NCBI GenBank assembly: GCA_947457545.1 | Contig: CANGXD010000014.1 | Location: 1-50,133, forward strand | Direction of reading: 5' to 3' | Source of the DNA: Gemmatimonadaceae bacterium | Lineage (GTDB): Bacteria; Gemmatimonadota; Gemmatimonadetes; Gemmatimonadales; Gemmatimonadaceae | DNA: 50,133 nucleotides | In this document: positions 47,503 through 50,133 of the stretch, one piece after another | Numbering within the stretch: position 1 is the first letter of the stretch | Layout of the letters: the number at the start of each line of letters is the position of its first letter | Translations under genes and position numbers: made by a program | The notes under the pieces: generated by a model | The model's database searches: none | Told to the model about the DNA's origin: nothing | The model's input: only the letters and a program-made list of their open reading frames with translations

Positions 47503-49170
47503 ATGGCTCCGCAGTTCATTTACGTCATGAAGGCGCTGCGCAAGGTCGTTCCGCCTTCGCGCATCATTCTCGACGACATCTGGCTCTCCTTCTATCCCGG
47601 CGCCAAGATCGGCGTGCTCGGTCCGAACGGGGCCGGTAAGTCGTCGCTGCTGCGCATCATGGCGGGCGTGGACACCGAGTTTCAGGGCGAGGCGTGGGCG
47701 CACAAGGGCACGCGCATCGGCTACCTGAGCCAGGAGCCCGAGCTCGACCCCACGCTCGACGTGCGCGGCAACGTGGAACTCGCCGTCAAGGCGCAGCGCG
47801 ACGCGCTCAACGAGTACAACGAGATTTCGATGAAGTTCGCGGAACCCGATGCGGACTTCGACAAGTTGATGGACCGTCAGGCGAAGCTGCAGGAGTACAT
47901 CGACCAGCACGATCTGTGGAATCTCGACAACAAGATCGACGTGGCGATGGACGCGCTGCGGTTGCCGCCGGGTGATGCCGACGTGACGGTGTTGTCGGGT
48001 GGTGAAAAGCGACGTGTCGCGCTCTGCCGCATTCTGCTCGAAGAGCCGGACATGCTGCTCCTCGACGAACCCACGAATCACCTCGACGCCGAGTCGGTGG
48101 CGTGGCTCGAGCATTATCTCGAGAAGTTTGCGGGGACCGTGGTGGCCATCACCCACGATCGCTACTTCCTGGACAATGTGGCCAAGTGGATCCTCGAGCT
48201 CGATCGCGGCAAGGGTGTGCCGTACGAGGGGAACTACTCGGGATGGCTGGAGCAGAAGCAGGCGCGGTTGGCGCTCGAAGAGAAGCAGGCCAGCGCGCGT
48301 CAGAAGACGCTGCAGAAGGAGCTCGAGTGGGTGCGCATGTCGCCGCGTGCGCGTCAGGCCAAGAACAAGGCGCGTTTGCAGGCGTACGAGGATCTCGCCA
48401 GCGAAGCGCAGAACGATCGCGTGATGTCGAACGAAATCGTCATTCCGCCGGCGCCGCGCCTCGGCAACGATGTCGTGCGCGCGAAGGGGTTGAAGAAGGC
48501 GTTCGGTGACAAGCTGTTGTTCGAGAACCTGAACTTCGACTTGCCGCGTGCCGGTATCGTGGGGATCATCGGCCCCAACGGTGCCGGTAAGACGACGTTG
48601 TTCCGCATGATCAACGGCTTGGAGACGCCCGACGGCGGCGAGCTCACGATTGGCGAAACGGTGCAGATCTCGTATCAGGATCAGCAGCGCACGCTCGAAG
48701 GGAAGCGCACGGTGTGGGAAGAGATTTCGGGGGGCCGCGAAACCATTCCGGTGGGCAAGCGCGAGCTCAATTCCCGCGCGTATGCCGCGAGCTTCAACTT
48801 CAAGGGCGCCGATCAGCAGAAGCTCACGGCCAACCTGTCGGGTGGTGAGCGGAACCGGTTGCACTTGGCGAAGACGGTGATGCAGGGCGGCAATCTGCTG
48901 CTGCTCGACGAACCGACGAACGATCTCGACGTCGATACGTTGCGTGCGTTGGAAGAGGCGGTGATCGACTTCTCCGGCTGCGCCGTCATCATTTCTCACG
49001 ATCGCTGGTTCCTCGATCGTGTGGCGACGCACATTCTGGCGTTCGAAGGTGACTCGGAAGTGGTGTGGTTCGAGGGCAACTACGGCGCGTACATCGAGGA
49101 CCTGAAGAAGCGGAAGGGGCCGGATGCGGACCAGCCGCACCGGATCAAGTACAAGAAGTTGGTGCGGTGA
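47503..49170 (+). CDS. ettA: ABC-F translation factor EttA
   Basis: 555 residues from ATG 47503, exactly the usual EttA length; 56 upstream codons are rejected. Two ABC domains: Walker A GPNGAGKS (about 42-49) with signature LSGGEKRR and Walker [12 protein letters not shown], then the arm and P-site tRNA interaction motif linker ([23 protein letters not shown]), then GPNGAGKT with [12 protein letters not shown] and [11 protein letters not shown]. It gates entry of ribosomes into elongation depending on the ADP/ATP ratio. The last 100 bp of the gene are repeated at 49947-50046, bounding a small islet. A TACAAT -10-like box is at 47331-47336 without a clear -35. Confidence 0.94.
49071..49170 (+). 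repeat. Direct repeat A: 3' end of ettA
   Basis: The last 100 bp of ettA, ending at its TGA. It matches 49947-50046 at 96 of 100 positions (differences at 49077, two in the TAC codon near 49088, and one GAC/GAT). It resembles one end of an inserted element that used the gene's 3' end as a site, with the coding frame preserved. Confidence 0.92.
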
Positions 49171-49171
49171 C

Positions 49172-49384
49172 GTGTCGAACGACACGAGCGCGGATGCCGA
49201 GGCGGTGCGCGTGGCCGCTATCCGTGCCCGCTCACCGGAAGCGCGTCTTCGCGATGCGCTCGAGTTGAGCGAGCTCATACATGCGGCGGCGATAGCGCGC
49301 TTCAAAGCGCGCTATCCCGACCGGACCATGGTGGAGTTGGCGTACATGGTGAGTGAGGGGTCGCACACGCCGCGGGCGGACTAA
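49172..49384 (+). CDS. Small helical protein partnered with a nucleotidyltransferase
   Basis: 70 residues from GTG 49172, one base after the ettA TGA. The sequence RARSPEARLRDALELSELIHAAAIARFKARYPDRTMVELAYMVSE resembles the short proteins found immediately before MNT-type nucleotidyltransferase genes (SPE.RLR.ALELSEL......R.R..HPD pattern), from memory of the pairing. Its stop overlaps the next start (TAATG), so the two are coupled. No DNA-binding fold is seen; if the pair is a toxin-antitoxin module, which member neutralises the other is not clear. Confidence 0.7.
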   Translation: MSNDTSADAEAVRVAAIRARSPEARLRDALELSELIHAAAIARFKARYPDRTMVELAYMVSEGSHTPRAD

Positions 49385-49944
49385 TGACCGTGCTCTCTCT
49401 GCTCGACGAAATGGTCGTCGCGCTGAAGTCCGCCGGGGTGCCGTTCATGCTTACCGGATCGTTTGCTGCGGCCGTGCACGGCGCAGGCCGTTCGACGTTG
49501 GATATCGATTTCGTCATCGACCCTACGCCTGCGTCGCTCGAACAGTTTGTCACGGCGATGCTGTCGACTGGTCGGTATGTGTCGATGGACGCTGCCGAGG
49601 AGGCGATGGCGACGCGCAGCATGTTCAACGTGGTCGACGTCGAATCGGGGTGGAAAATTGACCTTATTGTTCGGAAGGCTCGGCCGTTCAGTATTGAGGA
49701 GTTTTCACGCCGGGTCGATCTGGCGCTGGGCAATGTCACACTGCCGGTGGCGACCGTCGAGGACTTGGTGATTGCGAAGCTCGAGTGGGCGCAGCTTGGC
49801 GCGTCTGCCCGTCAGTTGGAGGATGTACGGGCGCTCGTGTCACTTGCTGGCCCCGCATTTGATCGTGCGTATGTCGAGCGCTGGGTGAGCGCGCTCGGTC
49901 TTGGCGCGCAGTGGCGGGCGATCGGTCCGGTGGACGCCCTGTAG
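49384..49944 (+). CDS. MNT-type nucleotidyltransferase (AbiEii/DUF6036-like)
   Basis: 186 residues. The nucleotidyltransferase fold is shown by GSFAAAVHGAGRSTLDIDF: Gly25-Ser26, then Asp40 and Asp42 as the metal pair, and a third acidic residue, Asp93, in WKIDLIVRK. All catalytic positions are kept. Related enzymes include AbiEii and MNT-type toxins or antitoxins, which add nucleotides to tRNA or to a partner protein. The gene has more AT-rich codons (e.g. ATT GAC CTT ATT) than its neighbours, which suggests transfer. It is enclosed by the ettA direct repeats. Confidence 0.78.
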   Translation: MTVLSLLDEMVVALKSAGVPFMLTGSFAAAVHGAGRSTLDIDFVIDPTPASLEQFVTAMLSTGRYVSMDAAEEAMATRSMFNVVDVESGWKIDLIVRKARPFSIEEFSRRVDLALGNVTLPVATVEDLVIAKLEWAQLGASARQLEDVRALVSLAGPAFDRAYVERWVSALGLGAQWRAIGPVDAL

Positions 49945-49946
49945 TC

Positions 49947-50046
49947 CGAGGGGAACTACGGCGCGTGTATCGAGGATCTGAAGAAGCGGAAGGGGCCGGA
50001 TGCGGACCAGCCGCACCGGATCAAGTACAAGAAGTTGGTGCGGTGA
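49947..50046 (+). repeat. Direct repeat B: second copy of the ettA 3' end
   Basis: 96 of 100 bp match 49071-49170. It begins 3 bp after the nucleotidyltransferase stop codon and ends at a TGA matching the ettA stop. One difference turns a Tyr codon (TAC) into Cys (TGT), so it is a gene remnant under no coding constraint or comes from a diverged ettA. The 87 bp beyond it (50047-50133) show no recognisable feature. Confidence 0.92.
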
Positions 50047-50133
50047 TACGTCGTTGATTGGTTTGGGTTTGCCGGTGAGGTCTCGTTCGTGGCCGCCGGC
50101 GAGCCCGGTTCAACGCCGGCGACGCCCGGTCGA

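Follow-up and report, generated by a model that had tools for sequence, protein, structure and literature searches.

Why does the 3' end of a translation-factor gene occur twice, once in the gene itself and once more behind two small genes that follow it? The question arises at the edge of a 50,133-nucleotide stretch of Gemmatimonadaceae DNA (the window), which is the whole of contig C14 in the 321-contig assembly of genome G000. The gene most likely starts at ATG 47503 and stops at TGA 49168-49170, and we take it to be ettA, the name used in an earlier note on this DNA; sequence searches found the ettA end in relatives too. We consider it likely that the ettA 3' end serves as the attachment site (attB) for site-specific integrating islands in the Gemmatimonadaceae, which accumulate there in tandem. 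The two-gene pair of the window, here called the islet (49171-49944), would be the smallest such unit, a MenAT1-like pair that ends on a stop codon within the half-site.

The last 100 bp of ettA had been noted to recur after the pair with 4 mismatches, which is confirmed (49071-49170 against 49947-50046). A repeat search returned a 114-nucleotide pair (49064-49177 and 49940-50053, 92% identity), and the ungapped match, from 49064 and 49940, is identical at 101 of 107 positions. The pair does begin 1 bp 3' of the ettA stop, with GTG at 49172. Its far end had been placed 3 bp before the second copy; in fact the stop codon of the MNT gene, TAG at 49942-49944, lies inside the repeat, where ettA has the Trp codon TGG, and the gap to the 100-bp copy is 2 bp. 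The lower G+C content of the nucleotidyltransferase gene had been taken to support transfer. Its 62.2% is indeed among the lowest 5% of 561-bp stretches in the window, but the argument is weak because ettA itself has 63.1%. The earlier interpretation, an integrated element that carries the end of its target gene and restores the frame, is supported, and the arrangement is part of a family-wide pattern.

A 35-residue peptide from the EttA C-terminus has matches in 155 of 179 family genomes, and in at least two places in 19 of them; a control peptide of 35 internal EttA residues has matches in 151 of 179, and in at least two places in 3. Eleven of the 19 multi-copy genomes have a common left edge (G000, G006, G015, G030, G062, G099, G105, G128, G129, G180 and G181), and with G001, whose copy has decayed, the edge is seen in twelve. 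Together these 12 genomes, of 6 genera, contain 22 distal copies that start at one position of ettA. Eighteen of these (two each in G000, G006, G129 and G030, five in G128, and one each in G015, G001, G105, G181 and G180; 10 genomes, 4 genera) begin at -1 to -8 from GAGGGG. Compared with ettA, they are identical at 11-20 of 48 positions upstream of the edge and at 49-100 of 100 downstream, where the two lowest identities belong to truncated copies and those of G129 and G030 were compared with G128 ettA. The first edge analysis comprised 21 comparisons; the remaining three, from G173, G149 and G081, do not show the edge. A later comparison added four copies (two in G099, one in G062 and one in G181:C112), which share 10-14 of 48 positions with ettA before the edge and 65-97 of 100 after it. 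In G066 only 21 residues match the EttA C-terminus, and it was placed in neither group. A loose pattern scan of the named genomes gave 4 matches, three of them plain ettA ends and the fourth in G006.

Different content at exactly this boundary, which the earlier note had named as a sign of integration, was found in G105, G128, G129, G030, G181, G180, G099 and G062. In G128:C60 four copies of the ettA end lie within 7.7 kb, forming an array of small cassettes, and G129:C16 has three copies and a weak fourth. The cargo of G128 includes a sigma factor, a thioredoxin and a transposase; that of G129 a Fic/DOC protein, a hydrolase and an AraC-type regulator; and that of G099 an NYN/HEC-09-like protein, an HTH_37 and Gp49-like pair and a DUF6036 nucleotidyltransferase. 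Genes like ZorA and ZorB stand behind the left arm in G012, where the contig ends before any far boundary. In G001, MADS genes (mad3 and mad5-mad8 were matched) follow closely behind a lone 70-residue gene and the decayed copy (L050, G001:C11:108000-127600), with no far boundary in the stretch examined. For the islands of G030, G105 and G181, protein families could be assigned rarely or not at all, or no scan was made. The cargo often includes defence and toxin-antitoxin genes, but much of it is of other kinds.

The window itself probably leads into further islands. Contigs C135 and C65 both start with exactly the 128 bases that end the window, and C135 (10.6 kb) ends with a further copy of the ettA end, followed by the same 128-base stretch. 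The end of C14 just past the second copy therefore looks like a branch in the assembly graph. C135 carries a 1561-residue PDC-M54A-like protein, a transposase, presumably of the IS3 type, and the end of a GajB-like helicase; C65 carries type I restriction-modification, Fic and Schlafen/AlbA proteins. In G006, C65-like DNA (96.8% identity over 6.5 kb) comes after the same islet and second copy without C135, of which only repeat-sized pieces have matches within 18.6 kb. C135 thus looks like an island that one of two close genomes has and the other lacks, exactly at the repeat. Its identical 128-bp ends fit a circle or a tandem array equally well.

A second kind of sequence recurs at the islands. 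TGTCACATNNNNYGTCACATC is present at six places, in 3 of 61 genomes; all six are at ettA islands, among them the two ends of C135 and those of the G006 island. Reversed, as a control, the motif does not occur in the 61 genomes. The heptamer TTGTCAC or its complement GTGACAA is found 23 times in the stretches of at most 170 bp before the 22 distal copies, where 0.27 are expected and 200 mononucleotide shuffles gave at most 2, figures that serve as a guide and not as a probability because the heptamer was chosen after inspection and copies within a genome are related. Heptamers precede 11 of the 22 copies at fixed offsets, for the most part -122/-109/-90 (genus g2), -129/-116/-99 (G099) and, in Gemmatimonas, -95/-83 or one base away from these. 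G012 and G099, which are of different genera, both have a pair of TTGTCAC sites with a 12-bp period after the ettA end. The order of arm, core, gene end and second arm is the layout of a tyrosine recombinase attP, and the TTGTCAC sites look like integrase arm sites. A phage or satellite that carries the ettA end was considered and rejected: the arm pattern matched 44 viral loci, which we take as chance because none has an ettA end at E 0.01, and one degenerate pattern had no match in viral contigs.

From this arrangement we infer the following reaction. Recombination would take place at or next to the junction of GTnGTnC and GAGGGGAAYTWC, about 100 bp before the ettA stop. Since the incoming DNA would bring an ettA 3' end with it, ettA would remain complete, and the end that it displaces would be left at the far boundary. 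Later islands would enter at the same sites, and cassettes would therefore pile up in tandem. An integrase of a tyrosine-recombinase-like class is suggested by the arm-like TTGTCAC sites, of which the right arm has up to three and the left arm, past the ettA terminator, the pair with the 12-bp period. A terminator-like hairpin after 50046 appears when the end of the window is folded with its continuation in C135. The features of the locus are listed in Table 1.

Table 1. Features at the ettA end of the window.
Feature	Position	Strand	Remarks
ettA (ABC-F translation factor), target gene	47503..49170	+	frame open from 47335; last ~105 bp form the proximal repeat copy
Proximal repeat copy, in frame with ettA, putative attL side	49064..49170	+	core GTGGTTC followed by GAGGGCAACTAC; 101/107 match to 49940-50046
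70-residue protein, putative MenA1-like antitoxin	49172..49384	+	GTG start, TAA stop, 1 bp past ettA stop
MNT nucleotidyltransferase, putative MenT1-like toxin, 186 residues	49384..49944	+	PF08843; G25-S26, D40, D42, D93 intact
Distal repeat copy, putative attR half-site and ettA 3' end	49940..50046	+	left boundary as in 21 other distal copies
ettA-type downstream region, first arm of terminator-like hairpin	50047..50133	+	continues in C135/C65 into TTGTCAC pair

The earlier note had seen no integrase in the islet, and the same holds for all island sequence that we examined. A search with PF00239 (serine recombinases; E 0.001, 7 genomes) gave no match there, and neither did one with PF00589 (tyrosine recombinases; E 0.001, 21 genomes, including 18 of the 19 multi-copy ones, all but G131). 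Where a contig has both a copy and a recombinase match, the two are at least about 52 kb apart (G180:C2). Because no such gene was found in the examined islands, the best reading is a recombinase that has been lost or that works in trans. Several islands extend beyond the ends of their contigs, and a recombinase may lie in their unassembled parts or on helper elements elsewhere. Tyrosine recombinases that might act in trans, for which the earlier note had proposed a search, do exist. Among 18 integrase regions examined out of a larger number of matches, five orphan tyrosine recombinases (in G128, G129, G015, G017 and G001) lie away from ettA and are 24-80% identical in BLAST-matched pairs. None could be linked to the arrays, and the surrounding 3-6 kb hold 0 or 1 heptamer each.

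As a separate observation, box I of related orphan tyrosine recombinases in five genomes (L176, L177, L181, L188 and L193) seems unusual by eye, the expected arginine presumably being replaced or shifted. G000:C193 encodes another tyrosine recombinase, of 355 residues (L192:868-1935), which we take to resemble integron integrases, and G000 may hold an integron too.

Several observations weigh against site-specific integration at ettA. The first is the null result with PF00589 and PF00239, which leaves the enzyme hypothetical. If islands exchange the gene end, the proximal end should be foreign and the distal one original, and this comparison gave a mixed outcome. In G015 likeness to relatives is 0.84 for the proximal end versus 0.875 for the distal and 0.88 for the upstream part, which agrees with the expectation. 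G000 and G006 show the reverse, with higher values for the proximal end (0.90 and 0.89) than for the distal (0.88 and 0.83), and in G001 the distal copy is too decayed to be informative. Eleven of the 22 distal copies, the second copy of the islet among them, have no TTGTCAC heptamer within 170 bp, and the post hoc choice of the heptamer counts here as well. The islands of G012, G001 and G105 have one end only on their contig, and the order C14-C135-C65 is one that we infer from contig ends. Moreover, 7 of the 19 multi-copy genomes do not fit the edge. The homology extends upstream of the core in five of them (G173, G149, G081, G131 and G150); the other two, G069 and G140, also have at least two internal EttA matches and probably hold second ettA genes. 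Tandem duplication does occur in the family, though without this edge.

Even if islands integrate at ettA, the islet need not be an active one. We compared 19 Gemmatimonas ettA ends, those of 18 relatives and of the window. The 70-residue gene stands at the ettA boundary in four (G000, G006, G015 and G001); the other 15 have neither this gene nor a close MNT relative there, so that relatives with an ettA end and no islet, which the earlier note would have counted as support, are in the majority. On an ettA tree of 20 genomes, whose root is arbitrary (the outgroup was not retained) and which has no support values, the four carriers fall on three separate branches, with islet-free nearest neighbours (G017 for G000 and G006, G005 for G015). 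Between G000 and G015 the synonymous divergence (dS) of the MNT gene is 1.52 versus 0.61 for ettA; between G000 and G006 the two are alike (0.057 and 0.044). The patchy placement on the tree and the excess of MNT dS over ettA dS favour independent acquisitions at one site that were then inherited vertically, though many losses are possible.

The strongest alternative for the islet, to which we give not quite an even chance, is that it is a fixed remnant: a larger ettA island would have lost its arms and most of its genes, leaving its first two genes fused to the far half-site. The lack of an arm heptamer within 170 bp upstream of the distal copy fits this, as does the lack of space for an arm between the ettA stop and the 70-residue gene. 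So does G001, where the 70-residue gene is kept alone and ends on the same half-site TAG, which in G000, G006 and G015 is the stop of the MNT frame, while the distal copy has decayed. Against a remnant stand the identical islet boundaries in G000, G006 and G015, although the MNT protein of G015 has only 74% identity, the purifying selection on MNT and the patchiness of the islet on the ettA tree. The armless islet, a unit of 876 bp, may thus be a remnant or may depend on the sites of its neighbours.

Much less probable is that the repeats arose when the ettA end was duplicated in tandem or underwent ordinary homologous recombination, with no site-specific recombinase taking part. Repeats of about 100-240 bp could recombine by RecA, and the longer upstream homology in the five genomes named above would be expected. 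This explanation conflicts with the single left edge common to 22 copies in 6 genera, with the chance-level identity just upstream of it, with the non-ettA arms at a fixed distance in half of the copies and with the unrelated cargo. An assembly artefact, arising where a metagenome contig ends, is a scarcely credible source of the second copy: the contig does end 87 bp past the copy, where other contigs start with the same 128 bases, but the same islet and second copy lie inside a 790-kb contig of G006, and a homologous islet and copy inside a 174-kb contig of G015.

Within the islet, the MNT start codon (ATG at 49384) overlaps the stop of the 70-residue gene by one base, and the pair is probably read through and translationally coupled from ettA. 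The MNT protein scores above the PF08843 cut-off (E 2.3e-5), and G25, S26, D40, D42 and D93, which we take to be the nucleotidyltransferase catalytic motif, are invariant in 24 sequences. Its ratio of nonsynonymous to synonymous divergence is 0.17 for G000/G006 and 0.14 for G000/G015, and the protein is therefore maintained by purifying selection. With a single sequence, phmmer matched it to PDB entry 8an4 at E 5e-4; a profile of the 24 sequences did not recover this entry at E 0.01, so that any link is distant. Entry 8AN4 is MenT1 (PMC10435456).

We regard the islet as a putative MenAT1-like toxin-antitoxin pair. As in MenAT1 of Mycobacterium tuberculosis, a small antitoxin-type gene lies directly upstream of a nucleotidyltransferase gene of similar size, and MenA1 has 68 residues (PMC10435456), compared with 70 in the window; in contrast, the window MNT is distant in sequence from MenT1. 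The 70-residue protein, which the earlier note described as helical, has 38 homologues. PF18993 (Rv0078B-related antitoxin) has weak matches, all below the curated cut-off, in 5 of 6 scanned relatives (P0133, E 5.9e-5; P0127, P0129, P0155 and P0156, E 0.058-0.092; P0121, none), three of the six having been picked since a source already listed PF18993. The protein of the window itself has no match to PF18993 at E 10, a profile of its family against the PDB returned unrelated chains only, and PADLOC has no match for it or for MNT. A 261-residue protein, P0064, matches PF18993 and nucleotidyltransferase families together, all below curated cut-offs, and is apparently a natural antitoxin-toxin fusion.

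The closest known system is that of the Dehalococcoides ssrA islands. They are described as tandem islands bounded by 20-bp repeats of the ssrA end, with strain-variable cargo; 15 of 31 are without an integration module, and 16 carry a module with serine recombinases (McMurdie et al., 2011; PMC3146451). The likeness lies in tandem islands downstream of one conserved gene, with direct repeats of its 3' end. The ettA islands likewise have a constant repeat boundary (22 distal copies), several islands at one site (G128:C60 and G129:C16, and in G000 as judged from contig ends) and unrelated, variable cargo; an island-encoded recombinase was not found in the ettA island sequence examined with PF00589 (21 genomes) and PF00239 (7 genomes). 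They differ in that the target is protein-coding, that the repeat has about 105 bp or more and restores the reading frame, and that TTGTCAC arm-like sites are present.

Islands at the 3' end of a conserved translation-machinery gene are also known from staphylococcal cassette chromosome (SCC) elements at rlmH, of which tandem and recombinase-less forms exist. SCCmec and its recombinase CcrB are mentioned in passing in the Dehalococcoides report (PMC3146451). SCC elements differ in having serine recombinases and short att sites and in belonging to another phylum. Integron cassette arrays, too, consist of small, promoter-poor cassettes without a recombinase of their own, often with toxin-antitoxin and defence genes. 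In contrast, the site of the ettA islands is a piece of a housekeeping gene with arms and is not known to be an attC site, and no PF00589 match, such as IntI would give, was found beside the examined arrays. We speculate, and doubt more than we believe, that the Gemmatimonadaceae have a gene-capture system analogous to integrons and unrelated to them. An unlinked recombinase would act in trans on recombinase-less cassettes, each with a TTGTCAC arm, a core and a working ettA 3' end; the cassettes would enter at ettA and leave it intact, promoterless ones would be expressed by coupling, and an array of defence and toxin-antitoxin genes would build up.

No report of ettA (yjjK) as an integration site was found in the open literature, as judged from listings and with most subscription journals outside the search. 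Our results suggest that, throughout one family of a poorly known phylum, a gene for a translation factor is where defence, toxin-antitoxin and other genes land, and the core and arms provide sequence rules for finding further islands. They raise the question of which enzyme moves islands that seemingly encode none. In the smallest unit one sees a way in which two genes of a toxin-antitoxin pair may gain their expression and a stop codon from the insertion site.

Some further observations concern duplicated ettA ends. Those with homology extending upstream of the core include L140 (G149:C15), L141 (G150:C95) and L145 (G173:C4); G149 and G150 have the same 2.5-kb spacing, which points to another process. 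In G180 the ettA-end copy (G180:C2:701477; L148:9478) is on a different large contig from ettA, with a second, degenerate stretch about 4 kb away and an upstream arm unlike the three kinds found elsewhere.

MNT relatives are present in 38 of the 179 genomes. Three of 30 MNT loci adjoin ettA, and 6 others have the 70-residue partner upstream of MNT; the relatives outside those 30 loci do not share a contig with ettA, except in G074, where 76 kb separate the two. At eight loci where MNT pairs occur elsewhere, direct repeats clearly flank the pair at L068 only (G104:C23), where it lies between 40-nucleotide repeats (1105-1144 and 2136-2175, 88% identity) that are perhaps another kind of cassette boundary.

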